A DNA stretch of 64,000 bases. Source: Parietichytrium sp. I65-24A. Lineage: Eukaryota; Sar; Bigyra; Thraustochytrida; Thraustochytriidae. Each line of letters starts with the position of its first letter. Within the stretch, counting starts at the first letter, position 1. Both the position numbers and the translations under genes were made by a program. The stretch spans positions 682,001 through 746,000 of the forward strand of contig BLSF01000006.1 of assembly GCA_012862575.1 (NCBI GenBank), read 5' to 3'. The notes beneath the pieces are model-generated. The model did no database searches. It was not told the DNA's origin and worked only from the letters and a program-made list of their open reading frames with translations. Of the stretch, positions 1-35,916 are shown piece by piece.

Positions 1-99
1 TGGAGGAGTTATTGCAGAGTCAGTCAAGGTGGGCGTGACGTAGACTGCGACGCACGGGCTGGCGGACAAAAACCGGATGTGAAGGAGCAAATGCGCTTG

Positions 100-1122
100 C
101 TAGTATGGGATGGTGCCTGAGACCATGACGCGGTGCATTTCGCGACGCTCAGTATAGTCGGCATTGGCTGCGTGCTGCGTGTACCGGTTGTCCCACAGTA
201 GTGCTTGTCCGGGCGACCAGTTGATGTCAAGGAACGACTCCGGGTGGGACATCGGCATTGCATCGATGTGGGCCAAAAGCCCAGCCAAAAGCTCGTCATC
301 CGCACCCTCGATGCGCCGAGAAAATGCTCTATTCACAAAGAGCGATGGTCGGCCGTCGCGGTGGTCTTTGCGAATGACAGGATGTACTGCCTCAATGCCT
401 GCCCCGTCGCTGTGGATGGACTGAAGCGAGCGAATGCAAGTCTGATTCTCGAGAGGAAGGGTGTCGAACGCGGCGCGCATGTCTAAAAAGTGTGTGTTCC
501 CTCCGTGCGGAGGCAGCTCTCTAGAAACCAAGAACGCTGCGTATGGGGTCGCCTGGCGATAAGTCAGGTCCGAATGCCAGCCTTCACCAAATGCCACAAG
601 GTCACTCGGCTCTTTAACTATACGTGTCACTTCGGACGGAAGCCCACCTGTTTGGGCTGCTCTGCGCATTGTAGAACCCAGTTGGTCTGCGCCCAGACCC
701 GAAGCCGCTGCGCGTTGAACCTGCACCGGAGAGTTGAAGACTCCACGGCTGAGGTAGCTTGGTGTCCCTGAAATGGCCGGATCAACTGGTCCGATCATTT
801 TAGACAGCTGAACTTGCACCTCAGGAGAGATTGTCTCCGAGACATTGTGCATCAACAACACAAGGTGGGTTTCTAAGGCATGCCGAAGCTGAGCCATTGT
901 TTCGCCGTTGTCATGGAGCGCTTGAGAAGGATCAAACCCGTAAACCTCCGCGCCGAATGTCTTGCCCTCAAACGGGACAATTCGCAATTCTTTCGGGCCG
1001 TACTCCATGTACGTTGACGGATTACTTCCCAGCTCTTGTGGCAGGAAATAGTCCATCTCACCTCTTCTCTGCGAGATGGACCACATGACTGCAAGAAGCA
1101 GTCCCGCAGCCCAGTCCTTCAT
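100..1122 (-). CDS. TauD/TfdA-family Fe(II)/2-oxoglutarate dioxygenase
   Basis: A 340-residue protein of the TauD/TfdA superfamily, which uses Fe(II) and 2-oxoglutarate to hydroxylate small acids such as taurine or sulfonates. The iron-binding facial triad is visible: H183 and D185 in WHSDL, and a distal His (H317) in DNRYTQH. Arginines suited to binding 2-oxoglutarate follow (R327, R331). The N-terminal region (FGAEVYGFD, about residues 56-64) is the usual start of the family fold. The frame opens with an ATG whose first 20 residues are hydrophobic and then basic (LLLAVMW...QRR). That could be a targeting or anchor segment; a second ATG at residue 23 (MDYFLPQEL) would give a form without it. 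It lies downstream of and co-oriented with the NDUFAF7 gene. The fold call is firm; the substrate cannot be read from sequence. Confidence 0.9.
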   Translation of the reverse strand: MKDWAAGLLLAVMWSISQRRGEMDYFLPQELGSNPSTYMEYGPKELRIVPFEGKTFGAEVYGFDPSQALHDNGETMAQLRHALETHLVLLMHNVSETISPEVQVQLSKMIGPVDPAISGTPSYLSRGVFNSPVQVQRAAASGLGADQLGSTMRRAAQTGGLPSEVTRIVKEPSDLVAFGEGWHSDLTYRQATPYAAFLVSRELPPHGGNTHFLDMRAAFDTLPLENQTCIRSLQSIHSDGAGIEAVHPVIRKDHRDGRPSLFVNRAFSRRIEGADDELLAGLLAHIDAMPMSHPESFLDINWSPGQALLWDNRYTQHAANADYTERREMHRVMVSGTIPY

Positions 1123-1584
1123 CGTTTTGCTGCCAATCTATTGCCTTGCTGATCTGACTTGGAGTTTGGGATCTGCTCTCAACAGGCATCGACACTGTTC
1201 TTCAATCCGAGCGACCAGGGCGTAGAATCCCCGGAGAATCGTCACCAATGTCGAGAAAGCTTCTGAAACCTTGGTGAAAAAACATCGATCCGGGCTGATT
1301 TACACTATTGCCCCGATGCTGGTGGCAGGCTATGGCTCTAGCTAGATAACTTTCTATTGAAGCAACTATTAGAGCTCATTCATGGCATCCGGTAGTAGTA
1401 CGGTAGGTTTCAGTTCCGCAAAAATAGTGAGCAGCTGCCCTTTAAGTGAAGCCACGAAGTGAGAGCGTAAACAAACCCTATCGGAAGGTGGGGTGGCTGC
1501 CCTTACACAGGTTCAGACTTTTTGGAGGCAGCTGAAAAGCCAACGATGGGGGAGGGGAAGGGGAAGGTCAGGGTAGTTTTGCTT
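1123..1584. other. Intergenic region between the dioxygenase and NDUFAF7 genes
   Basis: This stretch must hold the 3' end of the NDUFAF7 transcript and the promoter of the dioxygenase gene, both on the minus strand. I see no gene. It contains a ~54-bp insertion-like repeat, annotated separately. Confidence 0.6.
1442..1495 (+). mobile_element. ~54-bp insertion-like repeat, copy A, flanked by 8-9-bp direct repeats
   Basis: The sequence from TTAAGTGAAGCC to GGTGGGGTG is identical, in reverse complement, to 6308-6361 (55 matching bases counting one flanking base). It is flanked by a direct repeat, GCTGCCCTT, at 1434-1442 and 1496-1504; one T is shared with the element edge, so the duplication is 8 or 9 bp. 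Copy B has a different flanking duplication, which is what independent insertions of one element would leave. The element has no terminal inverted repeats and no ORF. The family is unknown. A 9-bp duplication would fit mutator-like elements and 8 bp would fit hAT elements. Confidence 0.75.
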
Positions 1585-3342
1585 TCAAGGTTTATCTACA
1601 GTTGGGATAGTTGGATTTGCCTTTGGAGGGAAACCGACAATGTCATCGCTGACCTGCAAAGTCCCTGGGACTGGCGCAACAACAGCCATTGCTTTGTAAG
1701 ATTGGCCCATCCCGTAAACTGGAGTACCGTCGTCGTCAATTTGGTCATGGTCCACCAGACGCTTGAAAGACATGAAAATATTCTCCTGAGTATCCTCGTC
1801 AGCTGTGCCCTGTAACAAAACTGCGACTCGAGTCTCGATTCCCATGTTTCGCAGGAAGTCCCCTTGCGTAATTGGCCCGTGGACCTCAACTTTGCATGTG
1901 CCGTCCTTCTTCGCAAGCTCTTTCGCGTAATTTTCCGTCACAGTGCGGAGGAACCGAAAGTCAACATCCGCGGAGAGATCAACCAAACCAGGCTCGGAGA
2001 GCGGGCTCACAAATTTGTGGTTCTTGATGCCGCGCAATGAATTTTGGCCAGGGAAATTTTCTCCGTAGTCAATTACCAAGGCTGCCCCACCACAACGATG
2101 GAGCTCCCTTGCAATATCTTGCATCAGACCTGCCCCGGCTGCACCAACCTCAATACTTTCGCCACCTTGGAACGATTCGCCGTGAAGCTGATCATTGTTC
2201 AATAAAATTCTACAAGCGGGTGTCTGACCGCGGGATAGGACGAAACGGATGTGATGTCTTTTGTCTACGGTCTCAGGCAAGTTGTTCTTGTCGATACCTT
2301 CAGTCTCTGGAACGACATCTAGATCCACGAGGCGCTCAACCCATTTCTTGGACCGCTCGGAAAACTCGAATTGGTGAATCGGAAGCGCATCAAAGAGTTC
2401 CTGAGCCACAACTAACACGGGCGTTTTAGACTCTTTCACAGATTCGCAAGATTCCTTAAAGTCACGCTTCCAGCTAACGCTAACGAATGGGTCAGTGGCG
2501 ACTGACGGGTCAAGATCCAGCGGGGCTTTCAGCTTGAGCAGCCCCAGTGCTCTGGCCTCCTCCCACTCTTTGTCCATGTGAGGCTCCGTAGTTTGTTCAG
2601 GCACATCGTAATTCACAGGTTTGCCATCTTCCGTGACACACTTCAGGCTTTCTTGCTGGACTCTGCGAAGTGCAGGGCTCGTTTCAATCATGTGCACCCC
2701 GCCTCCGCGAGAGAGCGCTTTGCAAAACTCGGGGAACGAAGAGGCGGCTCGCAATAAATCGGACATCAAAGAACCCTTCCCCGGACCGAGCTCAACTACG
2801 CGCACCGATTCTGGCTCGCCAAGAGCCATCCAATTGGCCACGCACCACACCCCTATAAGCTCCCCGAACACTTGACTGATCTCCGGAGACGTAGTAAAGT
2901 CTCCAGATGAACCAAACACCTCCCTGCACATATAGTACCCATGAATAGGATGCCCTAGTGCGACTGTCATGAACTCGGAAACAGAAATTGGCCCGCGCAC
3001 CGAAATGCGCATGGCCAGCTCGTTTAAAATTGGGGTCCATGGCGACTTGACGACCGGGACGCTTGCGTCTGGCCCATCCACTGGCTCTGTATCATAAACG
3101 GGAATATTCACCAGCCCGCTCCTGTCTATACTTATTTCTGTCAACTTCTTGATCGAGTCCACATCGTCTGCCATTGGCACTGTCCTCAGCTTGATGTTGT
3201 TCTCCGTTCGAAAAATGCGCGTCTTCTGTCCACCGGCTTCATCCTGGGGTCCCGAACCGGACTTGCTGGATAGCAACCTCCACTGCTGCCGTCTCCAGAG
3301 CCCTGCACTCTGCCTCACACTGCTTGGACGCAACCCCCACAT
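1585..3342 (-). CDS. NDUFAF7: NDUFAF7/MidA-like mitochondrial arginine methyltransferase (complex I assembly)
   Basis: A 585-residue protein of the MidA/NDUFAF7 family of SAM-dependent methyltransferases. In animals and fungi this enzyme dimethylates an arginine of complex I subunit NDUFS2 early in assembly. Family motifs: the GPISVSEFM entry and GHPIHGYYM (about residues 117-137), GDFTTSPEISQVFGE (about 148-161), and the SAM-binding ELGPGKGSLM (about 184-193). VAQELFDALPIHQFE follows further on, as in this family. The N-terminus is rich in Arg, Ser and Gln and nearly free of acidic residues for the first 30 positions, as expected of a mitochondrial presequence, which supports the outermost ATG at 3342. 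No introns are needed. Acidic stretches near residues 90 and 370 look like lineage-specific insertions. Confidence 0.92.
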   Translation of the reverse strand: MWGLRPSSVRQSAGLWRRQQWRLLSSKSGSGPQDEAGGQKTRIFRTENNIKLRTVPMADDVDSIKKLTEISIDRSGLVNIPVYDTEPVDGPDASVPVVKSPWTPILNELAMRISVRGPISVSEFMTVALGHPIHGYYMCREVFGSSGDFTTSPEISQVFGELIGVWCVANWMALGEPESVRVVELGPGKGSLMSDLLRAASSFPEFCKALSRGGGVHMIETSPALRRVQQESLKCVTEDGKPVNYDVPEQTTEPHMDKEWEEARALGLLKLKAPLDLDPSVATDPFVSVSWKRDFKESCESVKESKTPVLVVAQELFDALPIHQFEFSERSKKWVERLVDLDVVPETEGIDKNNLPETVDKRHHIRFVLSRGQTPACRILLNNDQLHGESFQGGESIEVGAAGAGLMQDIARELHRCGGAALVIDYGENFPGQNSLRGIKNHKFVSPLSEPGLVDLSADVDFRFLRTVTENYAKELAKKDGTCKVEVHGPITQGDFLRNMGIETRVAVLLQGTADEDTQENIFMSFKRLVDHDQIDDDGTPVYGMGQSYKAMAVVAPVPGTLQVSDDIVGFPPKANPTIPTVDKP

Positions 3343-4035
3343 CCTCGGCAGCTCGTTTCACTCTTTCCCTCCCAGCCACTTGAGCCCTTCGCCCACCATA
3401 CGACACGCAAGTCGATTTGCGACTTGGGAAACGCCAGACGTCTCCGATCTGAACTTCCGATCGTAAGCTCCGAGTTCTCCAAGCCACGCTGAGGCCAACA
3501 CGCACCTAAAGACCAAGCCACCCAATTCGCTATATTCGCTCCATCATCATCCACGCCTACGATCGGCCAGCCTCACGTGACATAGACGCCCTCGTTCCAC
3601 CAACCCAGTAGAATCTAATCTAATCTATCTTGAGTCTATCTATGTCTATCTTGGTGATCTTGATGCATAGAATGAATGCAATGAATAGAGATGAGAGATG
3701 AATAGAGAATGAATAGCTATGAATGGGAATGAATGGGATTGAATTGATTGAATGGGAGATCATACACGGGCTGCGATCTTCGTCACGCAGACGGACCGGT
3801 GACGTGGGGCTTGACATGGACGAGTGTTTGGTTATGCATGGTTATGCTGGTTATTCTGGTTATGCTCGAAGGTGACGTTTCTAATTAGAACAAGAAATAA
3901 GAAATGGAGAGCGGAGAGTGCGGAGGACGAGGGAACGAGGGAACGAGAGGTGGTGGTGCGTGAGTGGGAGCTGCACTGAGGAGAGCGTGGGCCCAAAGAG
4001 CGAAAGGAGAGAAGAGAGGAAAGAAAAGTAGAAAC
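3343..4035. promoter_or_regulatory. Divergent intergenic region between NDUFAF7 and Sm-D3
   Basis: This 0.7-kb region separates two divergent genes, so both promoters must lie here. It contains a TCTATC/TCTAATC-rich stretch (about 3610-3655) followed by imperfect GAATGAAT repeats (about 3667-3762). A GA-rich 5' leader precedes the Sm-D3 ATG. No TATA box is clear enough to call. Confidence 0.5.
3667..3762 (+). repeat. Imperfect GAATGAAT-type simple repeat
   Basis: Repeated GAATGAAT, GAATAGAGATGA and GAATGGGAATGAATGGG units make a purine-rich, degenerate short tandem repeat in the NDUFAF7/Sm-D3 intergenic region. Confidence 0.7.
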
Positions 4036-4380
4036 ATGACAGAAAAGCTGAGTGTGCCGATAAAGCTGCTGTTCGAAGGCATCAACCACACTGTGACGGT
4101 GGAGATGAAGAACGGTGAGTCGTATCGCGGCGAGCTTCTTGACGCGGAGGAGTGCATGAACTTGCATATGAGCGGGGTGCTGCACACTGCGAGGAACGGG
4201 CAGAAGAAGACTCTAGAGCAGATTTTCATCCGTGGCGCGAATGTGCGTCTGATTATTTTTCCCAGTGCGCTCAAAGAAGCCACAATCTTTAGGAAGGTTG
4301 CAAACATGAAAAAGAAGGAGGACCGCAAACAGGGGGCGCGGAGAGGTCGTGGGAGGGGCGGTCGCGGCGGTCGCCCGTGA
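4036..4380 (+). CDS. SMD3: Small nuclear ribonucleoprotein Sm-D3
   Basis: A 114-residue Sm protein that forms part of the heptameric ring on U1, U2, U4 and U5 snRNAs. The Sm1 motif runs from KLLFEGINHTVTVEM through NGESYRGELLDAEECMNLHM. The Sm2 motif is IFIRGANVRLIIFP. The tail is a short Arg-Gly series (GRGRGGRGGRP), as in other D3 proteins, where it is the target of arginine methylation. The open frame runs further upstream, but that part begins with GTG and translates a purine-rich leader, so the ATG next to TEKLSVPIK is the start. Its presence fits a spliceosomal genome even though introns here are rare. Confidence 0.97.
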   Translation: MTEKLSVPIKLLFEGINHTVTVEMKNGESYRGELLDAEECMNLHMSGVLHTARNGQKKTLEQIFIRGANVRLIIFPSALKEATIFRKVANMKKKEDRKQGARRGRGRGGRGGRP

Positions 4381-4706
4381 ATCAGGCCCTGTCTGTTAAG
4401 TGAAAATGCGCGCTTCGGAGCGGGCTCTGATAAACACCTCTGTAAACTGTTTCTGCATTTCTAACCACATGAAAGAAGGGTATTGCGTATTTTCTGCGCT
4501 CCTCCCACCATTCATCTGCCACCCTGATGGCATCGCCATCAGCTGCAGGATTGAGCCACGCGGGGTCTACGTCCGGTTCTCCTTGAACCAGAACTCTCTC
4601 TGCCTCCAACCGTCCACACAATACCAGAAATTGTAATAGATAGAACCAAAAGCACCAACAAAAAATCAGTTCAACATTTCAAGGACAGCGTTGCATTTGT
4701 GGAGAT

Positions 4707-4781
4707 TTGTTAAAGCTCTTGCATACTTTCAAGCTGGATACTCGAGTTGTCAAAGCTCTTGCATACTTTCAAGCTGGATAC
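4707..4781 (+). repeat. Two-copy tandem repeat, 40-bp period
   Basis: A 35-bp unit (TTGTTAAAGCTCTTGCATAC and onward to CTGGATAC) at 4707-4741 recurs at 4747-4781 with one difference (TTGTT versus TTGTC), separated by 5 bp. It is a recent local duplication with no coding context. Confidence 0.9.
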
Positions 4782-6307
4782 GCGGGAAAACCAAACCTTG
4801 TATGTTTAGTTTTCTCTTCGTGTTTTGCCTTTGCTCGCAAAAGTGTATAGGAGGCAAATTAACGCTATTCAGGCTCATGGGCCAGCAATTTTGTTCGTAT
4901 CTTTATCGTTCTGCTCTTTTCTTGTCGAAGTCGCCTTTCGGGACGCGCAACGCTTCGATTTCAGTGCAGTATTCTTGGAAACTAAAATTTTAGAGACCGC
5001 CACTGGATTCGGTTTGTCGTTCTTTCTTGTTGAATAGCACAGCTTGCCCTCAAAGAGAAGCCATTCTTGCTCGGACCACCCCGGTCAAACAAAGCAACAC
5101 TTGGATATCCAGAGGCATGCACTTTGGCGCAGCCACACGAAGATAGGAAGGGCTAGTATGAGAAAGCTCTCTATCGCCGTCGCTTGCGTCTGTGGCAGCG
5201 AATTTAGCTCCCACGGGAGGCCATAAATAGAGATCTTCCTCGTCTCCGTGGATGCATTGGCCTCGAGAGCATCACGGCGGTGGTGGTCTTCCTTGGCTCT
5301 TGCAATACTTTGATTGCTTACGCACGCCTTACGCGGACGGTCGCCATGATGCATCTCCCAATGACTCACGAAATTGAAAGCCAAGAAGAGACCCTCTTTG
5401 GGCATTACCAGGAGAACCATCAGTTTGCATCCTTCGTCCACTCTGTCAAGTGGCTTTGTCCTACCGAGGTGCGATCTTGAATCGTTCTTCTTCCAAGATC
5501 GCTGAAACAGAGGAAATGGCGGGTTGGAGCAAACATAACTTGGCAAACTTTGCATGGGTCGCACGCATTTGGCCTTCCACTCGTTCAAACTACTTCCACC
5601 TTAACAATAGGGCCCAGGTCATCTCGGGTTAATTCCACAAACCATAGCCATTCGTCATACTGTCCTTGATTTTTCTCGATCATTTGTCGGTCTTTCACCA
5701 TTGCGTCTTTGAAAGCGAGACCTTAGATGGCGCCGAAACTGCGCTGTTTCTGAATTTCAGGCAATTCTGAATTCATAGGTTGGCACTAGTACTTGCTAAC
5801 CCTTTCGGCGCGGAGTCATGTGGGGACTAAGTGGTGCTTCTAAGAATAAGAAAATGTTGAACAAGGAGCCACAGGAGTCACTCTTCGTTCGCAGTCTTAA
5901 AGTCCGACAGCCCTGTCTTGATGCAGCGGCAATTAGTAATCGTGATGTGGCAGAGGGCCACCAGCCTCTGATTGTCGGGAACAAATTTTCATTTTCGTCA
6001 GAACAGAGTTATTCAGAACCTGGAACGTCCTGGAACACCCTGAATTCAGATCTTGAGAGTAGCAGATGAGACGCAGCCTTGCTGTTGTGTCACTTTTCCC
6101 AATCACCGTACCGGTAAGGCAAGCTAATAGTTTCAGTATTTTTCATTCACAAGCGTCAATCTATTAGCTAGCTAGCTAGTAGAAACGCTTACAATGTCGC
6201 AGGATGCACAGAACGAAAGGAAAGCAGAAAGCAGCTCTTACTTGCACAAGTTGTTTACCCGCTTCTCGCTTCTGTTCAATCAAACTTTACCTAAACTTAC
6301 TGTTAAT

Positions 6308-6361
6308 CACCCCACCTTCCGATAGGGTTTGTTTACGCTCTCACTTCGTGGCTTCACTTAA
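6308..6361 (-). mobile_element. ~54-bp insertion-like repeat, copy B, flanked by a 9-bp direct repeat
   Basis: This is the exact reverse complement of copy A at 1442-1495. It is flanked by ACTGTTAAT at 6299-6307 and again at 6362-6370. The perfect 9-bp duplication differs in sequence from that of copy A, which argues for transposition-like insertion rather than segmental duplication. There is no ORF and no internal inverted repeat. Confidence 0.78.
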
Positions 6362-8139
6362 ACTGTTAATCTAATTTTGCTTTTCGAAGATGTTCACTTT
6401 CAACCATTTCTGAATTCCGAAAACGTTGAAGTTGATCCTCCGAACACTGGCGAAGAGATGCCTCACTACAAGATCCGTCTCTCGGCGTCACGCGAACAGG
6501 TATAGTCTGCTGGTATAGTACTGGGTATCGACGACTGACGACAGGGACCGGCAATTAGCCAACGTGAAGTGAAGATGAAAAGTGACAACAAGGCACAGCA
6601 GCAACCTCTCATTGTCTCTTATGGACTAAACAAAACCTCCATGCTTCGTATGTGCTAAGTCTTGTCAGTATACTTTATGAGCATGCAGCGTTGTATATGA
6701 TCAAAAAAGCAGATCAGGTCGAATCGACTGGAGGGAAAGTCTGAGAGTGACTCCCTCTGAACTGCCAGAGAAAGAAGATTTGATTCAAAGTCAACCCGGA
6801 TTCGGACTTCTGCAATATTATTGTGGAAGGGCTTTTTCGTCACAAAAGTTCGCCGAGTGGAGCTGAATAGTCAAAATCCATTTCTTTCCCCTTGGCCGCC
6901 TTCAAAGCTCTCAACAAACAACAAGCGAGAGGAGTCCTGGTGCTGCGGAGCACAGCACCACACTTTACTATCCTTCCGTTTTAAAAAGGAAAATTGCAAA
7001 CCCTGATCTCGTCACGTGAAACTAAGAGATCCAACCTTTTCACTAAGGCGTGCATATCCGTGCATAATCAGCGAACTGACTCTATCACGATTTGAGCTCC
7101 ACGACGACATGCGCTGGCACGCGCCCAGGACACTAGCCATCCACGATCTCCATAATCCAAAACTAGCTTGAAGATCTAGAAGCGATAGGCTTTCCAGCCG
7201 TCTTCCGTCTTCTCAATTTCGAACCTGAAACGTTCTTGTCCGAGGCGGCTTTCCATTTTCACTCCTCTCTTATCCTCTCTTAGATGGCGGTCTTTCCGTT
7301 CCGTTCAGCAAAACTGGTATTAGTACTCAGTACTGTACAGTACTTTGTCACTGGAAGAGGCTGTCCCAAAAGTACTGCGCGGAAGACTAATCATGAGGGC
7401 TGTCTCTGCCACTGGCGAAAGTGGCGAAAGAGGCGAAAGGAAAGTTTATTGACCCATCAAAGTGCCTTCTCTTGGGGAGCCATAAGTTCATGGGACACAG
7501 CTCGCGACTCCAACTTTTATGGTCACTACCAGTATCGGTAACGGAGCAGTATCGGTGCTGGTGAAGAGAGAGTTGTCACTTTTCAGATTCAGAACACGAA
7601 TGATTTTGTGCTGCCTTGGGGTACTAGTAGTACTCACAGTCAGTTCTAGCATACCTTTTAGGAGTGCAAGAATAGAGGCTCTGAGGATCTCTGAGGGATT
7701 CAGTCGTCGAAAGTCTGCTTTGATCGCACATTCCTTTGGGTGACATCTGCCCAGTGAGAAAACGTAAAAAAGGGCTAATGCGCCGCCCGGTAATCATGAT
7801 TCATCACAGTCGGGCTGAAATCCTGTTATGCAAGCGACAGTGAGAGACGATAATACTGACCATAATGGGGTGCTATTATCCAGTGTAAGGCAGTGGCAGT
7901 GGGAGTTGTGTTCATTAATTAACAGAATGGCTCGGGAAGGTCTCGGAATATAGTTCTGGGTTCTTGCTTGTGGGAGACTGGGACTTGTCAACAATGTCCA
8001 AAGCAACTTGCGTGAAAAGGTATTGGCAGAGCACGAATAAAAAGGCAGACCACGAATAAAAAGGAAAGCAGTCAAACCCCAAACGCAGAGCTGCTGGACA
8101 AAAGCTGAGCGACTGGATTAGATCGTGGAAGCCGTCAAA

Positions 8140-10557
8140 ATGCGAGCGACGATCAACGCAGCTGTCTTTGCGACCTCAGTGGCCATCGGCCACGCCATCG
8201 ATGCGAACACCGTGACTCAGATCGCACACTACAGTGGAGACTCTGCGCCTCTCATCTATGACGTTGACGAGGACGGCGTTGGTGATCTTGTCATTGGCTT
8301 CAACGGAGGCAACTCGCTTTCAAATGCAGTCAACAACGTCGCCTACTGGCACGGCAACGTAGACGGCACCTTTGCCGACATGTCCTCCAATGGACCGTTC
8401 TCCGGAATCATCGCTGCCAAGAGCGTGGTGCCGGCAATGATAAAGCTGTCTGGGATGTCTCATCCCGTGCTCATCCTTGGAACGGAGGACCCAAGTGTTG
8501 TCATCTACACCTATGACTCCGGAACCGGCAAATACGTCTTGTACACCGGGACCAATCCGTTTGATGGCTTGTACCCCTCCAACTCGGATCACCCAATGGT
8601 GAGCTTCTACAAAGACGGCTCCAACTGGTATGCCACTCTTGCGTACTCTCCGAAGAATGGCAATGAGGCGCAAGACACAACTGTGAAGATCTTCTCAGTC
8701 GTGTCTGACAACGCGGGACTCTTCACCCTGTCGCAGACCAATACTTTTATGGTTGACGATGTACACTCCACACAGTATGTGTACAGCAAAGACTACCCGG
8801 GAGCGGCGTTTCTCGCAAACTTCCAGAACGGCCAAGGCAACAACATTTTGTATGCCACCTCGGCAACTGAGACAGATGTCGCTAACATGCTCAAACTGAC
8901 GAGTTCTAGCCATCCTCTACATGATCTGAACGGGGACATCAACCAGGCGTACACACGTGGAACGTTTGGATTGCTTGGAGCTTCCACTGGAAGCGATGCA
9001 GACGACTTTTGCTGGGGAACCTCAAACGGGTTTGTGTACTGCACGCTAGGTAACGTACAGGTGACAACAATTACAGACTCCCCGACATCGGCACCAACTG
9101 ATGCCCCCACTGATGCGCCAACTGATGCACCAACTGATGCACCAACGAATGCGCCAACTGATGCACCAACTGATGCACCAACCAATGCACCAACTGATGC
9201 GCCAACCAATGCACCAACTGATGCACCAACTGATGCACCAACCAATGCGCCAACCGATGCACCAACTGATGCACCTACTGATGCGCCAACTGATGCCCCA
9301 ACCAATGCACCAACTGATGCACCAACCAATGCGCCAACCGATGCACCAACTGATGCCCCAACTGATGCGCCAACCAATGCACCTACTGATGCGCCAACTG
9401 ATGCACCAACCAATGCCCCAACTGATGCACCTACTGATGCGCCAACGTCTGCACCAACATCGGCTCCGACTTCAGCGCCGACTGCAGGACCAACTGCAAT
9501 GCCGACAGCTGCGCCAACGTCCGCACCAACATTGGCTCCGACTTCAGCACCGACATCTGCGCCAACATCTGCACCAACGTCTGCACCGACTGTGGCACCT
9601 ACTGCGGCTCCAACAAAAGCCCCCACATTCTCTCCGACACGGGCGCCGACAAAGACTCCGACTTTAGCTCCTACCAATGCGCCGTCGGTGAGCCCAACCC
9701 CTGCCCCGACAGCTTTCACTGATTGCTCCGGAACCGACGTACTCCTCGCTCTCGACAAGTCGTTCAGCATCAAGACAAGTGAGCTTCAAAGGGAAAAGGA
9801 CGTCTTAGAAAACCTCATGAACCTTTTGCCCATCGGTTCAGGCACGAGCGTTGCACTGACCAGCTTTGGGAGAACATACACCGATGTCATTGGCGTCTCC
9901 CAAATCAGCACACTTGGTTCTGATGCAGTTGGAGTTCGCACGACCGTGATGGACTTTGTCGATTCGTCAACGGCGCGAGACCGGTACACCGACTTTGTCC
10001 CAATTTTTGACACAGACCATGCCCAGCTGCTCGCAGAGTCGTCTACTCGCCCATCAATCTTGATCCTTTCAGACGGCGAACCATTCACGGCAAAGTACAA
10101 AGGCGGTTCCAAGTCCACCAAATTGGCATGCAATGCCGCATCTTCTTTCAAGGACCAGTACCCGTTGGCAAAGATTTTGTGCTTCCAGTCAGACACCAAC
10201 TCCAAAGCGAAGACATTTTACAAGTGCGCGTGCGACGCAATCTGGCTTGCGAAGGACTCTCGCGCGTCAGGTTCGCCGGCCTCAATTGCGCTGGAAATCA
10301 TGCAGAACCAGATCTGTACGCCAACCTCACGCCAACCGGACCCTTGCGAAGCGGTCAACAACGATTCGTCAATCAAGACCAAGAACAAGCGCAGCGTGTG
10401 CCTAAAAGTGCAAAGGAATGCTCGCGGGATGCTCAACAGTGACGCCGACGCAGTTGCGTCTTCTCTGAGATACCAGTGCTATTGGAAGGGCAAGTGCAGG
10501 GTTTACAACAGATACGCCCCACTCTATGACACCTATGTGGACCCTGGCACCGCTTGA
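8140..10557 (+). CDS. Secreted FG-GAP-like / Pro-Thr repeat / VWA protein, copy 1
   Basis: An 805-residue predicted secreted protein. The first ~19 residues form a signal peptide (TINAAVFATSVAIGHA). The N-terminal domain (~20-315) starts with an FG-GAP/VCBS-like calcium loop (DVDEDGVGDLVI, D41 onward) and includes WYATLAY and DDFCWG segments. Residues ~318-525 are a stalk of tetrapeptides, first PTDA/PTNA, then PTSA and variants. From D528 a von Willebrand factor A domain carries an intact MIDAS: DKSFS (D539, S541, S543) and LSDGEP (D645). A cysteine-containing tail follows (CKCAC-like, KYQCYWK-like). The frame extends upstream to a GTG, but the ATG at 8140 begins the signal peptide. A cell-wall or extracellular adhesion role is inference from architecture. 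Two tandem paralogues follow. Confidence 0.85.
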   Translation: MRATINAAVFATSVAIGHAIDANTVTQIAHYSGDSAPLIYDVDEDGVGDLVIGFNGGNSLSNAVNNVAYWHGNVDGTFADMSSNGPFSGIIAAKSVVPAMIKLSGMSHPVLILGTEDPSVVIYTYDSGTGKYVLYTGTNPFDGLYPSNSDHPMVSFYKDGSNWYATLAYSPKNGNEAQDTTVKIFSVVSDNAGLFTLSQTNTFMVDDVHSTQYVYSKDYPGAAFLANFQNGQGNNILYATSATETDVANMLKLTSSSHPLHDLNGDINQAYTRGTFGLLGASTGSDADDFCWGTSNGFVYCTLGNVQVTTITDSPTSAPTDAPTDAPTDAPTDAPTNAPTDAPTDAPTNAPTDAPTNAPTDAPTDAPTNAPTDAPTDAPTDAPTDAPTNAPTDAPTNAPTDAPTDAPTDAPTNAPTDAPTDAPTNAPTDAPTDAPTSAPTSAPTSAPTAGPTAMPTAAPTSAPTLAPTSAPTSAPTSAPTSAPTVAPTAAPTKAPTFSPTRAPTKTPTLAPTNAPSVSPTPAPTAFTDCSGTDVLLALDKSFSIKTSELQREKDVLENLMNLLPIGSGTSVALTSFGRTYTDVIGVSQISTLGSDAVGVRTTVMDFVDSSTARDRYTDFVPIFDTDHAQLLAESSTRPSILILSDGEPFTAKYKGGSKSTKLACNAASSFKDQYPLAKILCFQSDTNSKAKTFYKCACDAIWLAKDSRASGSPASIALEIMQNQICTPTSRQPDPCEAVNNDSSIKTKNKRSVCLKVQRNARGMLNSDADAVASSLRYQCYWKGKCRVYNRYAPLYDTYVDPGTA
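9085..9705 (+). repeat. 12-bp coding tandem repeat (PTDA/PTNA/PTSA stalk), VWA gene 1
   Basis: Units of the type CCAACTGATGCA alternate with CCAACCAATGCA and later with degenerate PTSA/PTAA versions. The third base varies often (gca, gcg, gcc), which suggests selection on the peptide more than pure slippage. The array also opens a long antisense frame, which is a by-product. Confidence 0.92.
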
Positions 10558-13577: not shown

Positions 13578-16151
13578 ATGCGAGTGACAATCAACGCAGC
13601 TGTCTTTGCGACCTCGGTGGCTATCGGCCACGCCATCGATGCGAACACCGTGACTCAGATCGCACACTACAGTGGAGACTCTGCGCCTCTCATCTATGAC
13701 GTTGACGAGGACGGCGTTGGTGATCTTGTCATTGGCTTCAACGGAGGCAACTCGCTTTCAAATGCAGTCAATAACGTCGCCTACTGGCACGGCAACGTAG
13801 ACGGCACCTTTGCCGACATGTCCTCCAATGGACCGTTCTCCGGAATCATCGCTGCCAAGAGCGTGGTGCCGGCAATGATAAAGCTGTCTGGAATGTCTCA
13901 TCCCGTGCTCATCCTTGGAACGGAGGACCCAAGTGTTGTCATCTACACCTATGACTCCGGAACCGGCAAATACGTCTTGTACACCGGGACCAATCCGTTT
14001 GATGGCTTGTACCCCTCCGACTCGGATCACCCAATGGTGAGCTTCTACAAAGACGGCTCCAACTGGTATGCCACTCTTGCGTACTCTCCGAAGAATGGCA
14101 ATGAGGCGCAAGACACAACTGTGAAGATCTTCTCAGTCGTCTCTGACAACGCGGGGCTCTTCACCCTGTCGCAGACCAATACTTTTATGGTCGACGATGT
14201 ACACTCCACACAGTATGTGTACAGCAAAGACTACCCGGGAGCGGCGTTTCTCGCAAACTTCCAGAACGGCCAAGGCAACAACATTTTGTATGCCACCTCG
14301 GCAACTGAGACAGATGTCGCTAACATGCTCAAACTGACGAGTTCTAGCCATCCTCTACATGATCTGAACGGAGACATCAACCAGGCGTACACACGTGGAA
14401 CATTTGGATTGCTTGGAGCTTCCACTGGAAGCGATGCAGACGACTTTTGCTGGGGAACCTCAAACGGGTTTGTGTACTGCACGCTAGGTAACGTACAGGT
14501 GACAACAATTACAGACTCCCCGACATCGGCACCAACTGATGCACCAACTGATGCACCAACCAATGCGCCAACTGATGCACCAACTGATGCACCAACCAAT
14601 GCACCAACTGATGCGCCAACCAATGCACCAACTGATGCACCAACCAATGCGCCAACTGATGCCCCAACTGATGCACCAACTGATGCACCAACTGATGCAC
14701 CNNNNNNNNNNNNNNNNNNNNNNNNNNNNNNNNNNNNNNNNNNNNNNNNNNNNNNNNNNNNNNNNNNNNNNNNNNNNNNNNNNNNNNNNNNNNNNNNNNN
14801 NNNNNNNNNNNNNNNNNNNNNNNNNNNNNNNNNNNNNNNNNNNNNNNNNNNNNNNNNNNNNNNNNNNNNNNNNNNNNNNNNNNNNNNNNNNNNNNNNNNN
14901 NNNNNNNNNNNNNNNNNNNNNNNNNNNNNNNNNNNNNNNNNNNNNNNNNNNNNNNNNNNNNNNNNNNNNNNNNNNNNNNNNNNNNNNNNNNNNNNNNNNN
15001 NNNNNNNNGACTGCCCAACTGATGCACCAACTGATGCACCAACTGATCGCACCACATCGCGCAACGATGCCCCAACTGATGCCCCAACTGATGCGCCAAC
15101 CAATGCACCAACTGATGCCCCAACTGATGCACCAACTGAGGCACCTACTGATGCGCCTACTGATGCGCCAACTGATGCGCCAACAGAGGCACCTACCGAT
15201 GCTCCGACTGATGCGCCGACTGAAGCACCCACTGATGCTCCAACTGATGCTCCAACTAATGCGCCGACAAATGCGCCAACGGTCAGCCCAACCCCTGTCC
15301 CGACAACCTTCACCGATTGCTCGGGAACCGACGTGCTCCTCGCGCTCGACAAGTCGTTCAGCATCAAGACAAGTGAGCTTCAAAGGGAAAAGGACGTCTT
15401 AGAAAACCTCATGAACCTTTTGCCCATCGGTTCCGGCACGAGCATTGCGCTAACCAGCTTTGGAAGGAAATACACCGATGTCATCGGAGTTTCGCAAATC
15501 AGCACGCTCGGTTCTGACGCAGTCGGAGTTCGCACAACCGTGATGGACTTTGTCGACTCCTCGACAGCGAGAGATCGGTACACGGACTTTGTACCAATTT
15601 TTGACGCAGACCATGCCCAGCTGCTTGCAGAGTCGTCTACACGTCCATCGATCTTGATTCTCTCAGACGGCGAGCCTTTCACCGCAAAATACAAAGGTGG
15701 CTCCAAGTCCACCAAGCTGGCATGCAACGCTGCAAATGCTTTCAAGAACCAATACCCTCTGGCGAAAATCTTGTGCTTCCAGTCAGACACCAAGTCGAGA
15801 TCTAAGAAATTTTACAAATGCGCTTGCGACGCAATCTGGCTTGCGAAGGACTCTCGCGCGTCAGGTTCGCCGGCCTCAATTGCGCTGGAAATCATGCAGA
15901 ACCAGATTTGCATGCCTACTTCACGCCAACCAGACCCTTGCGAAGCCGTTAATGGGCTCAAGAATAGGTCATCGAAGAAGAAACGGAAGATATGTCTAAA
16001 AGTGAAGAGGAACGCCCGTGGGATGCTCAACAGCAAGACGGAAGCCATCGACTCCCCGTTGCGTTACCAGTGTTATTGGAAGGGCAAGTGCAGAGTGTAC
16101 CATCGATACGCCCCACTCTACGACACCTACTTCGAACCCGGCACCGCTTGA
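13578..16151 (+). CDS. Secreted FG-GAP-like / Pro-Thr repeat / VWA protein, copy 2 (contains assembly gap)
   Basis: A paralogue of the gene at 8140, with the same order: signal peptide, FG-GAP-like domain, PTDA/PTNA stalk, VWA domain with DKSFS and LSDGEP. The N-terminal ~310 residues differ from copy 1 at only about two positions (A3V and an N/D change in YPSxSDHP). The VWA part and tail differ at roughly 35 positions. The stalk contains 307 unknown bases (14702-15008). Just after the gap the repeat phase is disturbed (DCPTDA, then DRTTSRND), which looks like misassembled or low-quality repeat sequence. The true stalk length is therefore unknown, and the apparent 857-residue length depends on the placeholder. 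The start is the ATG at 13578, at the signal peptide. Confidence 0.83.
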   Translation: MRVTINAAVFATSVAIGHAIDANTVTQIAHYSGDSAPLIYDVDEDGVGDLVIGFNGGNSLSNAVNNVAYWHGNVDGTFADMSSNGPFSGIIAAKSVVPAMIKLSGMSHPVLILGTEDPSVVIYTYDSGTGKYVLYTGTNPFDGLYPSDSDHPMVSFYKDGSNWYATLAYSPKNGNEAQDTTVKIFSVVSDNAGLFTLSQTNTFMVDDVHSTQYVYSKDYPGAAFLANFQNGQGNNILYATSATETDVANMLKLTSSSHPLHDLNGDINQAYTRGTFGLLGASTGSDADDFCWGTSNGFVYCTLGNVQVTTITDSPTSAPTDAPTDAPTNAPTDAPTDAPTNAPTDAPTNAPTDAPTNAPTDAPTDAPTDAPTDAXXXXXXXXXXXXXXXXXXXXXXXXXXXXXXXXXXXXXXXXXXXXXXXXXXXXXXXXXXXXXXXXXXXXXXXXXXXXXXXXXXXXXXXXXXXXXXXXXXXXXXXDCPTDAPTDAPTDRTTSRNDAPTDAPTDAPTNAPTDAPTDAPTEAPTDAPTDAPTDAPTEAPTDAPTDAPTEAPTDAPTDAPTNAPTNAPTVSPTPVPTTFTDCSGTDVLLALDKSFSIKTSELQREKDVLENLMNLLPIGSGTSIALTSFGRKYTDVIGVSQISTLGSDAVGVRTTVMDFVDSSTARDRYTDFVPIFDADHAQLLAESSTRPSILILSDGEPFTAKYKGGSKSTKLACNAANAFKNQYPLAKILCFQSDTKSRSKKFYKCACDAIWLAKDSRASGSPASIALEIMQNQICMPTSRQPDPCEAVNGLKNRSSKKKRKICLKVKRNARGMLNSKTEAIDSPLRYQCYWKGKCRVYHRYAPLYDTYFEPGTA
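14527..15290 (+). repeat. 12-bp coding tandem repeat (PTDA/PTNA/PTEA stalk), VWA gene 2, interrupted by Ns
   Basis: Units of CCAACTGATGCA type run on both sides of the 14702-15008 gap. The 3' part uses PTEA as well as PTDA and PTNA. Tandem identity is the likely cause of the gap. Confidence 0.9.
14702..15008. other. Assembly gap (307 N)
   Basis: A run of undetermined bases inside the PT-repeat stalk of VWA gene 2. The 60 bases after it (GACTGCCC..., ATCGCACCACATCGCGCAACG) break the repeat pattern and should be treated as unreliable. Confidence 0.99.
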
Positions 16152-17668
16152 TTTTGTTAGTGAGCGTCAAGCCTCCGCAAGTCGAAAGGAAATACTGCAG
16201 CGTCTTTGTCCAGAAAAAGCTTTATAATAATGCGACATTGAGTGAGTTGGATGCACGAAGGTTTCTTTTGTTCTGAACTCTGATAAAACAGTCAAATCAA
16301 AATAAGATTCTCCTTTTTCTTCTGTTTCGTAAACATGGAATGCGGACGCGAAACCCGAGGCTTGTGTGGCTAGTTGCTTCTTTGCTTTGCGCTTACGGGA
16401 AGGATATTGTGTGGGCGCAATTTTTGCCATGTTTTCTGAAAGGGGAAACGTCGACGCAGCAGACGGAGCGCGGAATATTTAGCTGACATCACCTAACGAT
16501 GACCCGTCTTGATAGAAAACACGGTTTGCATCTTAGCTCTCCCACACCACATCACCACGCGTCACCAGGACACCTTTGCAATCGAATTCTTTCGCTTGTT
16601 GTGCTCACGTACGTAAATCTGTTAGGTGCCAAGTAGGTAGTCACAAACACAACCAAATTCCGTGAACTCCTTTCGGGTCACGCGCTTCTTGTCCATCTGC
16701 ACTTCGCGTTGTTTCAGACACCCCAAAGCTGCGCGATTTCCCATGCCCGCTGGCTTGGGGTCTCAGGTGCCATGTATGGGCACAGGCGTCTAATTCTTAG
16801 TTTCTACTTATCTTCATTTTTATTTGCAGTATAAACGCAAAATTCTTCCATCTTTGTTTGGTAGCTTGGCGCGAAACGATCTCAAAATGAAAGCTAGAAT
16901 TTATTTGTCCGGTAAAAGTTCTTACAAAGTTCTAACTAACAGTTAATCTCCTGGCGTCTGAAGGCACTACCGAAAGACGTAGCACAACGATAATACACAC
17001 ACCTATGTTTGGACATCTGTTCATTGAGCAGATGAGAGAATGTGTGACTAACAAACTTTATTCTGTTTAGGAATGGAATGGGCTATGGAATGTGAGCGGG
17101 ACAAAGAGCTTCTCTGGCGCGGAGTGTGCGGTGGTCCATAGAAACATGGATGGCTGCAAAGGCGAACACCCCACGCTGATGTCCATGGCGATGTGTCCAA
17201 GTATTTCCATTGAGTTGGTGGGAGGGAGGAATCGATTTGGCAATTCCAGTTGCTCGCTAGTCCCCACTCATTACTCGCTACTCGCTATGCTGGCACCTCT
17301 CTCCACGTCTCCCAAAGGAAGTTCGCCATGGTGGGAAGCTTTTGCAAGCTAAATAATTTGTTGCATTTTGATGAGCTCGCCTGAACGCCGGCTCTACAGC
17401 AACGAGTTTGGCGCGCAAATTGTAGAAGGATTACGGTGCTGGAACAGAAGAACACTATTACTCGAGCCAAATCGCGCGGATACACAAGCTCCATCAGTAG
17501 CTTATGTGCCTCTATTGCCATGACTAGTCGCAGCTCACTTTAATTCCTCTTAGATGACCTTGCTGTCCAATGGACTGTGAATGTATATCTTGTTTTGTCT
17601 CCTGAGAATTGGCCAAGGCTGCAAACCCGAATCGCGGGCGGACTCGGCCTGACTGTGGATTAAGGAAG
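16152..17668. other. 1.5-kb spacer between VWA genes 2 and 3
   Basis: No gene is recognisable. Short frames lack motifs. The region must hold the 3' end of VWA gene 2 and the promoter of VWA gene 3. Confidence 0.5.
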
Positions 17669-20149
17669 ATGTTGAGCAAGTACCAATACCGAGCTGCAGC
17701 CTTTTGTGGGCTCGTTGCGATTGCCTATGGGGCGCTGAGCCCCAGCGCTATTGTTTACGAAATTGCGAATTTGAGCGGAGCATCTGCCCCTCTCATTTAC
17801 GATGTTGACGAAGACGGGATCGGCGACCTCATCATCGCATTCAATGGCGGGAACTCGGTCAACAATAATGTTAATAATGTGCTTTACTACCGCGGATACT
17901 CGGATGGAAGCTTTGTTGATGAATCAACCAACGGGCCATTCTCCGAAATCATTGCTCCAAAGAGACCGGTGCCAGCCATGATCAAGTTACCGGGGATGTC
18001 GCACCCTGTGCTAGTTTTAGGCACAGAAGATCCAAGTATTTCAGTCTACACGTACAATTCTGTGACGAGCAAGTATACGGCTTACTCTGGCTCAAACCCT
18101 TTCGCAGGTTTATTCCCTACTTCCTCAGACCATCCCATTGTGAGCTTTTATGAAAGCAATTCTGAATGGTATGCTGTTCTTGCATATGCCCCACGGACTG
18201 GTAACTCCAGAGATATATCCACCGTCAAAACGTTCAAGGTTCAGTCTAGTAATACCGCGCTTTTCAGCCTCACTGAAGTAACAAGTATATCTGTCGACAA
18301 CCTGCACTCCGCTCAGTACTTTTTCAGTAAGGACTACCCTGGGGCGGCATTCATTGGAAATTCAAGGAGCTCCCAAGGCAAGACCGTCTTTTATACAGTC
18401 AGCCCTTCGACTGTTACGAACTCGGATGACATGACAGTATTGACAAGTACCTCACACCCACTACACAGCCTCGAGTCCCTACTGCATATACCCATCACGA
18501 GAGGAACATTTGGCCTTCTCGGAACTTCAACTGCAGCTGACCTTGACGACTTTTGCTGGGGAGCGGAGAACGGAAAGGTTTATTGCACCATAAGTAATGT
18601 GCAATCCACGGTCATCACCGAGTCGCCAACTGCGCAACCAACAGAGACTCCAACTGCGCAACCCACAGAGACTCCGACAGCGCAACCAACAGAGACTCCA
18701 ACAGCGCAACCAACCGAGACTCCAACTGCGCAACCAACTGAGACTCCAACTGCGCAACCAACTGAGACTCCAACTGCGCAACCAACAGAGACCCCAACAG
18801 CGCAGCCAACAGAGACTCCAACAGCGCAACCAACAGAGACGCCAACCGCGCAACCAACAGAGACGCCAACTGCGCAACCAACAGAGACCCCAACTGCGCA
18901 ACCAACAGAGACCCCAACAGCGCAGCCAACAGAGACCCCAACCGCGCAGCCAACAGAGACCCCAACAGCGCAGCCAACAGAGACCCCAACCGCGCAGCCA
19001 ACAGAGACCCCAACAGCGCAGCCAACAGAGACTCCAACTGCGCAGCCAACAGAGACTCCAACTGCGCAACCAACTGAGACTCCAACTGCGCAACCAACTG
19101 AGACTCCAACAGCGCAACCAACTGAAACCCCAACTGCGCAACCAACAGAGACTCCAACTGCGCAACCAACAGAGACTCCAACAGCGCAACCAACAGCGAC
19201 GCCGACTGCGGCACCAACAAAGACACCAACTGCGCAACCAACAGAGACGCCGACTGTTTCACCAACCACAAGTGCCCCAAGCGTGTCTCCGACTGTATCT
19301 CCGACGGCGTTTACTGATTGCTCAAACACTGGTGTTCTCCTTGCAATTGACAAGTCATTTAGCATCAGCAGCAGCGAGCTGGCCCGTGAAAAGCAAGTGC
19401 TTGACTATTTGATGCAGACTTTGCCGATAGGATCAGGAACCGATATCGCCGTGACGGCATTCGGCAAAACCTACAACGATCTCATTGAAGTCTCTGCCAT
19501 GTCGACCACCGGAAGCGATGCGGTCGGCGTGGAGCAGATCGTATCGAACTTTATCTCAGAGGCGACTGATAGAAACACTTACACAGACTTTGTCCCGCTG
19601 TTCGGTAGCGAGTATGGAGTCTTGTTGGCAGAAACCTTCCAGAGGCCGTCAATCCTGATCCTTTCGGATGGAGAACCCTTCACGGCAAAGTATAAGCGGT
19701 CCAAAAAGTCGACCAAACTAGCTTGCAGCGCTGCGACCACGTTCAAAACTCAGTACCCTCTGGCAAAGGTTCTGTGTTTCCAGTCAGACACCTCGTCTAA
19801 GTCCAAGACATTCTACAAATGCGCCTGTGATTCGATTTGGCTTGCCGGAGACAACCGGGCAACGAATAAGCCGGCATCAGTGGCCCTGGAGATCATGCAA
19901 AACCAAATCTGCACACCCAACACGCAGCAAGCAGATCCCTGCGAAGAAGTGAATTCGCTAAAGTTATCCACGAAGAAAAGGCGCCAAGCCTGCTTAAAGG
20001 TTCAGCGAAATTCTCGGGGTCAGCTCAACAGCGACGATGATATCATGCAGTCTCCATTGAAGTATCAGTGCTACTGGAAAAGCAAATGCAGAGTTTACGA
20101 GCGCTTCGCGCCGTTGTACGACTCCTACCAAGCGCCAGATGCCGCGTGA
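17669..20149 (+). CDS. Secreted FG-GAP-like / Pro-Thr repeat / VWA protein, copy 3 (divergent)
   Basis: An 826-residue third member of the tandem family. The start is the ATG at 17669, giving [21 protein letters not shown], a signal peptide with a basic start and hydrophobic core; the frame extends upstream only from a TTG. The N-terminal domain keeps the calcium loop [12 protein letters not shown] and the DDFCWG motif but is clearly diverged from copies 1 and 2. The stalk is of a different type: about 24 octapeptides PTAQPTET in place of PTDA/PTNA tetrapeptides. The VWA domain begins near D550, with MIDAS DKSFS (D561) and LSDGEP. The tail keeps the cysteine pattern seen in the other copies ([16 protein letters not shown]). 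Its different stalk shows that stalks are replaced or re-expanded independently of the end domains. Confidence 0.85.
18627..19202 (+). repeat. 24-bp coding tandem repeat (PTAQPTET), about 24 copies
   Basis: Units of the type CCAACTGCGCAACCAACAGA-GACT encode the octapeptide PTAQPTET. Synonymous changes (gcg caa/cag, act/aca/acc) are scattered across units and the peptide is almost invariant. Confidence 0.93.
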
Positions 20150-35064: not shown

Positions 35065-35916
35065 ACTGCGGCCCTCTCAAACTCTCTCCCAGAAACACTC
35101 GATCATACAATCCAGAAACACTCGATCATACAATCCCTCGGCCTGGCGCTGACCGTGGTTCTGTCCGACACTCGCGCACCTCTCGTCGAATTTCGGACAT
35201 GGACATCACCGCCATCTTCGCCATCTTCGGTGTGCTGGTTTAGCTGGTTTAGTATAGTTCATCTCACTGTTACCTGTGTTATTGGCACCTTCCCCCTTGG
35301 AGTAAGGTCCATTGTTATCAACATGGTCGACCTATCTTAGATGGTAGAACTTTTAAGGAGGAGGAAAGCTAGGAAAGAAAAGGACGAAACGCTCCATTTC
35401 ACCGGACCTGGAGAAGCTTCTTATTATAACAAATAGATTACTCAGTACAGGTGACTCAGTACACTTGAAGCTTGTCCGAACGAAATACTGTTTTGTGATG
35501 TGTGTTTTGCGGATGTTGTATGACGTCAGCAAAATTTGAATTTTTTCTTTGCTTTTGAAGAAGATGATTTATAGGCTTTTGAAAGGAGCAAAGCGCGCGC
35601 GAGATGGCAAAATCTGAGGTGCCAGTGCCAACGTGAAAGCTTCGAAGGAGATAAGAGGCGGGCGGAAAGCGGTCCTTACTTGGTGGAGGACGCACGTTGC
35701 TACTTCGGTTGAGTGTGTCAGTGAGTGAGTGAGTGAGTGAGTGAGGTTTTTTCGTGGCCCCAAAGCTGCGGGAGGCAGGCAGGCACGCATTTTCTAACTT
35801 TGCCTTCTTCCCTTTGCGTAGGTCCCCAGCGTGGACGGTTTCCTTGGCTCGTCGGGACGGGTTGTACCTCGGCGCATCTGATTCGTGAGGAGTGTGCATC
35901 AGCTGCAATTGAGGAG
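35065..35916. promoter_or_regulatory. Region between the VOC gene and the MULE-like gene
   Basis: A divergent intergenic region of 0.85 kb. It includes a tandem CAGAAACACTCGATCATACAATC pair near 35090-35135 and a (GTGA)n run at 35721-35744. A well-formed 3' splice site at 35820-35821, with a CTAAC branch point, suggests a 5' intron for the MULE-like gene. Confidence 0.5.
35721..35821 (+). other. Possible 5' intron of the MULE-like gene
   Basis: CTAAC at 35794-35798, then a pyrimidine-rich run and GCGTAG ending at 35821, form a strong acceptor. GTGAGT donors are available inside the GTGA repeat beginning at 35721. No upstream exon with an ATG in a compatible frame is evident, so it may lie in the 5' untranslated region. 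Confidence 0.4.

Follow-up and report, generated by a model that had tools for sequence, protein, structure and literature searches.

Mutator-like miniature inverted-repeat transposable elements (MITEs) are small, lack an open reading frame (ORF) and are flanked by 9-bp target-site duplications (TSDs), and introners are short dispersed units with small TSDs. In R1 and R2, non-LTR retrotransposons of insect rDNA, the 3' end of the RNA is recognised, the TSD is of fixed length (14 bp in ancestral-type R1), and 5' truncation, added bases and microhomology mark the 5' junction (PMC2718515; PMC3414825); these papers and PMC8857657 give the background on 5' junctions, TSDs and template jumping in target-primed reverse transcription (TPRT) of the R1/R2 type. 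In the open-access literature searched, the smallest short interspersed nuclear element (SINE) was Platy-1, of about 100 bp (PMC10378772), and no element of the size and anatomy described below was found there. The present analysis concerns a 64,000-nucleotide stretch of the thraustochytrid Parietichytrium sp. I65-24A (contig BLSF01000006.1, positions 682,001 to 746,000), referred to as the window, which holds two copies of a short repeated unit that we call the micro-element. The units are, in our judgement, fairly probably SINE-like micro-retroposons, in which a structured RNA of about 53–57 nt is copied into DNA through TPRT.

The micro-element resembles R1/R2 and their short internally deleted elements (SIDEs) in its fixed-length TSD, its 5' shortening and the bases added at its 5' junction. 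It is unlike the R1/R2 SIDEs in its length of 53–57 nt, in sites that are spread over many contigs and in the short motif that lies at a fixed distance from them; our searches found no autonomous partner that shares its 3' end, and no ribozyme was found by an Rfam search of window positions 1–8000. With SINEs it shares a short, non-autonomous, dispersed and TSD-flanked form with subfamilies, and a fixed 3' end opposite a variable or truncated 5' end. It is unlike SINEs in having no poly(A) tail and, among ten 3' ends of long interspersed nuclear elements (LINEs) compared, no shared 3' tail (a partner may be missing from the assembly), and in that the same Rfam search recognised no part of tRNA, 5S or 7SL origin, although a distant origin is possible. 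Because these tail and RNA-gene features were not found, it is called SINE-like; we do not assign it to any known SINE or LINE family. Its length is about half that of Platy-1, and its 9-bp TSDs set it apart from Helitrons, which have none.

The two window copies and the features that belong to them are as follows, the copies and duplications being read from the sequence and the hairpins being predicted folds.

1413–1420, + strand: target motif GTTCCGCA, its first base 21 bp from the edge of the copy A TSD
1434–1442, + strand: left 9-bp TSD of copy A, GCTGCCCTT
1443–1495, + strand: copy A of the micro-element, 53 nt, left-end type T+AAGTG
1475–1495, + strand: predicted hairpin at the 3' terminus of copy A, ACCCTATC-GGAA-GGTGGGGT with a single G overhang
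1496–1504, + strand: right 9-bp TSD of copy A, GCTGCCCTT
6299–6307, − strand: 9-bp TSD adjoining the hairpin-bearing 3' end of copy B, reading ATTAACAGT in the sense of the element
6308–6328, − strand: predicted 3'-terminal hairpin of copy B
6308–6361, − strand: copy B of the micro-element, 54 nt, left-end type TT+AAGTG
6362–6370, − strand: 9-bp TSD adjoining the variable 5' end of copy B

An earlier note on this DNA had described two identical units in opposite orientation, each with its own duplication of 8–9 bp. The units are indeed identical over a shared 53–54 bp and each has a duplication of its own, but the length needs correction, as both duplications are 9 bp and perfect (those of copy B, at 6299–6307 and 6362–6370, both read ACTGTTAAT). 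Inspection by eye agreed that the core lacks terminal inverted repeats and poly-A. A 45-bp core was found at two places in the window at up to 3 mismatches and at none in 100 dinucleotide shuffles, and none of the listed target motifs lies beside copy B.

Searches of the whole genome assembly (42.5 Mb in 172 contigs, with the window on contig 6) demonstrated a dispersed family at many loci, not a single-locus sequence. Probes of 24 nt matched 341 places for the right end (at up to 2 mismatches), 188 for the middle of the core (up to 3) and 163 for the left end (up to 2), and the reversed-pattern control of each probe matched none. Copies were drawn from 100 listed places each for the mid-core and right-end probes, with an extra set from a full-length search. 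All 100 listed mid-core places were free of mismatches and lay within fetched loci or the window, and 46 of the 100 listed right-end places lay beyond the mid-core list. Of these 46, 38 were fetched; most represented further subfamilies of this short unit (GTGCAGCG, GTGACAGCG, GTGAGTGCG) rather than longer elements, and a few were left-shortened. The resulting sample of 159 distinct copies bearing the right end was examined for TSDs. More than one copy was present in 23 of 141 loci (window included), which gives no rate because some stretches were picked to span neighbours. Flanks differed between copies, the exceptions being one duplicated pair of loci (L069 and L070) and an internal duplication in L022; an all-against-all comparison showed that some loci have other repeats in common at other positions. 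In the clusters at L046, L094 and L124 several copies occupy a single 9-bp site or are no more than a few hundred bases apart, in either orientation, and at L046 and L094 successive copies with different left ends have the same 9 bases between them. A 144-bp repeat, 91% identical, was also observed near micro-element copies (L079:14-157 and L148:64-207).

The 9 bases past the right end recur near the left end in 123 of the 159 copies at up to one mismatch (98 exactly), in comparison to 2.6% for permuted duplications. This excess of flanking direct repeats, together with the unshared flanks, supports what the earlier note had proposed, namely independent insertions of a minimal non-autonomous element, and the recent movement that it read from the perfect identity of the two copies is probable. 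Around the 98 exact TSDs, one or more further bases agreed on one side in 24 copies and on the other in 21, near the chance rate of 25%, indicating that the true TSD length is 9. The copy in L115 sits in a LINE relic and is flanked on both sides by GTTCACATC, which is single in a related LINE copy and so serves as an empty-site comparison, with the reservation that the sequence just beyond also differs between the two.

The two ends of the micro-element are not equally conserved. As a search with the right end favours intact right ends, the mid-core probe provides the fair comparison of polarity, and among its 116 copies the right end was missing in one (L087), or in one of 96 when loci found only by the full-length search are set aside. 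The left parts of 75 copies with an exact TSD and an identical last 37 nt were of 28 distinct kinds, one of which was a plain substitution; this count was restricted to exact TSDs, the left edge being uncertain at one mismatch. The commonest starts before AAGTG were C (17) and T (15), the others being TT, CAT, CATTT, CAA, shorter starts and longer fillers, and the first insert base was C in 53, T in 21, G in 2 and A in 1 of 77 unambiguous cases. Left-end type and internal subfamily were not associated (permutation p 0.57), in a test that is weak, with only 25 of 123 copies outside the main subfamily. Ten copies of 48 nt or less retain an exact 9-bp TSD, one of them (L115) by internal deletion, and the shortest insert, of 24 nt in L136, is CAAACCCTATCGGAAGGTGGGGTG, lying between two copies of CTGCTCACT. 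A partial second right end precedes the TSD in L045 and L083, and in L160 of a second family described below, and L145 has extra G's ahead of the TSD.

Target choice was analysed at the 123 TSD-bearing sites. The motif GTTCCGC (up to one mismatch) starts 21 bp from the TSD in 24 and 22 bp in 14, and at any other distance from 7 to 60 bp it was found at 0–2 sites each. At up to 2 mismatches it stands at 21–22 bp in 58 sites, in comparison to a mean of 7.1 and a maximum of 13 for other spacings, and a clear motif is absent at about half of the sites. With regard to coding sequence, only 5 of 100 sites with enough flank fell within a reading frame that stays open across 409 bp of empty-site sequence, in comparison to 49% of random window positions, an avoidance that may reflect targeting or selection.

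The sense strand is predicted to fold at its 3' terminus into the hairpin ACCCUAUC-GGAA-GGUGGGGU plus one 3' G, and the longest common left form, CATTT, would be able to pair with AAGTG in a 5' hairpin. Older copies carry ACCTTATT-GGAA-GGTAGGGT or ACCCTATT-GGAA-GGTAGGGT, in which the sense-strand pair stays standard or G-U; stem changes in older copies mostly retain G-U or A-U pairing, a pattern that is suggestive of an RNA stem while falling short of a formal covariation test. The antisense strand gave a fold z-score of −0.6. At E values up to 5, the Rfam search of window positions 1–8000 returned two matches, both scoring far under the gathering thresholds: one with E 0.18, which lies over copy A but on its antisense strand and was not accepted as genuine, and one with E 3.2. 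A reading of AAACCCTA as a telomere template was dropped because an older form is AAACCTTA.

Locus comparison identified a second short repeat, CAGCGGAAGCGAACGACAGTGAGCAGCTGTAACCCCTGCCATAGTGGGGTG, some copies of which are extended to the left, for example by CGTTC.

L010:1584-1688, L091:62-113, L121:563-612 and L150-L189: second family of micro-elements, more diverged and sharing the 3' hairpin end

The hairpin end ...GTGGGGTG is common to both families, and the body of the second is partly alignable with the first and its left end variable. A pattern for the shared end matched 76 genome places, of which five were variants of the first family (13 for the reversed control), and a 27-mer from the body of the second family matched 130 places at up to 3 mismatches (control 0). 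Fetching 40 of the 76 shared-end places gave 39 distinct copies, of which 22 have a 9-bp TSD at up to 2 mismatches, 18 at up to one and 9 exactly, in comparison to permuted means of 1.4, 0.7 and 0.3; the maximum at up to 2 mismatches in 300 permutations was 6. For one full-length form three short hairpins are predicted, and for a shorter form two structural elements, of which the last has the same ACCCC...GGGGU end.

Searches for an enzyme that could mobilise these units identified one LINE lineage and no partner for the micro-element. The RVT_1 profile had two genome matches, a telomerase, which also matches Telomerase_RBD, and a LINE-type reverse transcriptase (RT) at the end of contig 1; this search was not exhaustive, since LINE relics found by a later protein search had escaped it.

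L127 (C1:1287782-1290001) and L190-L197: LINE-type retrotransposon, RT with a knuckle/endonuclease-like C-terminus

The C-terminal part of the LINE contains a cysteine/histidine knuckle and an R-AD...D stretch, which we take to be a restriction-like endonuclease. This C-terminal part had 29 genome matches; in 20 of them the match starts no earlier than residue 114 of the query (232 residues), which would be expected of 5'-truncated copies, and LINE stretches without stops occur on contigs C46 and C143. The APE-type LINE endonuclease PF14529 had no genome match. Genome searches, which may miss weak matches, revealed no LINE with ends matching the micro-element, and no longer element with such ends was noticed among the 159 right-end copies or in a masked locus comparison.

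The retroposed-RNA reading rests on four features that R1/R2-type TPRT would leave behind, namely a fixed 3' end, a 5' end that is remade from copy to copy, shortening with an intact TSD of fixed length, and repeated 3'-end pieces, the last of which we infer to be a trace of TPRT. Under this reading a sequence-specific DNA-binding enzyme would hold GTTCCGC(A) and make a cut with a 9-bp stagger, the first base of the motif lying 21–22 bp outside it, in agreement with the observed spacing and TSD. A reverse transcriptase would then start at the very 3' end of an RNA template of about 53–57 nt ending in ...GGUGGGGUG, the observed fixed end, which it would recognise through the predicted terminal hairpin. 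Copying would often halt before the 5' end of the RNA, a few bases would be added, with a sense-strand C or T commonly first, and the end so formed would be attached to the other side of the cut with little precision; the junctions themselves are observed, and this would be the order of events that made them. Such an enzyme would act in trans, in an R1/R2-like mode.

Several results weigh against this account. Inserts start with C or T in 74 of the 77 unambiguous cases, usually as CA, which gives CA...TG termini, and the R2 RT of B. mori is reported to add mainly adenosines in vitro (PMC8857657), which would read as T here. Fillers copied from the TSD were significant in only 2 of 12 tested, and for the L012 filler templating by the TSD was unsupported by the test. 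The motif (up to one mismatch) lies to the left of 19 and to the right of 19 of the 123 sites, never on both sides, which is transposase-like, and the local preference beside the TSD is mirror-symmetric, position −4 avoiding G and +4 avoiding C. GTTCCGC was found at none of the 22 TSD-bearing sites of the second family, a result that speaks against a shared machinery bound to a single fixed rule for its targets. No 9-bp TSD at up to one mismatch was found in 36 of the 159 copies, which include clustered copies, several that are visibly older, and L045, L083 and L145, with extra bases past the right end. The folds have modest z-scores (−2.0, −1.4, −2.3 and, for the older form, −0.5 in four sense forms), some copies break a stem pair (for example GGCAGGG), and the pairing retained by older copies has the formal shortfall noted above. 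Finally, no LINE partner was found: the ten 3' ends compared from the single LINE lineage are A/T-rich and without such a hairpin. The symmetric target and the C/T (CA) start are unexplained by TPRT alone and keep a transposase or a hybrid route alive.

The best surviving alternative, which we nonetheless consider unlikely, is that a DDE-type transposase, MULE-like (Mutator-like element) or other, mobilises a miniature DNA element and makes the 9-bp duplications; the hairpin side would then be the strong end, and a permissive left end would require only a terminal CA or TA. Like Mutator-like MITEs, the micro-element is small, has no ORF and has a TSD of 9 bp, within the 8–10 bp range of MITEs and MULEs. 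Such a transposase would also account for the palindromic local target preference, the random orientation relative to the motif and the CA...TG termini of most copies, with which the C start in 20 of the 22 TSD-bearing copies of the second family (ambiguous bases retained) agrees. Also in its favour is the 1536-residue ORF at window 35737–40347 (+), which by eye appears MULE-transposase-like and has a weak match below cut-off (E 0.0044) to PF21056 (ZSWIM RNase-H-like). No convincing terminal inverted repeats surround this ORF, however, the four inverted repeats listed there being unlike the micro-element, and the absence of any noticed longer element with its ends among the 159 copies also speaks against this reading. 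The anatomy is likewise unlike that of a Mutator-like MITE, in that inverted termini are absent by eye, a hairpin is present at one end only and the two ends are not both conserved. The MULE or hAT transposition suggested by the earlier note is weakened, as one fixed right end faces 28 different left parts across the 75 copies that otherwise agree, and left-shortened copies, down to the 24-nt insert, have perfect 9-bp TSDs and others extra partial right ends; the left-part variety, shortened copies and partial right-end repeats fit synthesis primed at one end.

Alternatively, a short double-stranded cDNA of the RNA may be made first, after which an integrase-like enzyme with a preference for ...TG-3' ends would join it at both ends. 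This hybrid route would unite the RNA-like polarity and shortening with the symmetric target and the CA/TG termini, but it requires two postulated enzymes, and the repeated right ends are more simply explained by direct synthesis at the target; we regard it as quite improbable. Introner-like units, also raised by the earlier note, or templated repair patches at breaks share with the micro-element a short, dispersed form without ORF, but they are very improbable here, as a constant 9-bp TSD and a fixed motif spacing are unexpected for repair patches and, unlike introners, the insertions avoid open frames (5 of 100 sites).

Other coding features were observed in the course of this work. Three neighbouring related long ORFs with repeats lie on the + strand of the window (8125–10557, 13578–16151 and 17609–20149); their N- and C-terminal parts are similar, and the second contains a run of X. 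Elsewhere in the genome, C66:8562-22499 holds a polyketide-synthase-like open frame of 5583 residues, with partial matches below cut-off to a polyunsaturated fatty acid (PUFA) synthase model.

In summary, we favour the reading of the micro-elements as SINE-like retroposons copied through TPRT, and we tentatively extend it, as a possibility on the doubtful side, to a class of 50–60-nt retroposons whose sole common sign is a 3'-terminal hairpin and which are inserted by a reverse-transcribing machine that reads GTTCCGC(A) at 21–22 bp (in the young family) with a symmetric 9-bp stagger. Such a machine, if it exists, would combine TPRT-like synthesis, transposase-like target symmetry and a preference for terminal CA/TG, a combination that to our knowledge is known from no LINE or transposase. 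If the retroposon reading is true, the lower size limit of a retroposon would move to about 53 nt and its recognition signal would probably be a single 3' hairpin, and GTTCCGC at 21–22 bp would represent a natural fixed-distance target code for insertion mostly outside open frames. Joining at the second end during retroposition is described in PMC6895275 as a "very poorly understood" step, and near-identical copies with junctions of unequal quality would form a natural record of it. The micro-elements would, in that case, be unusually small genome parasites.

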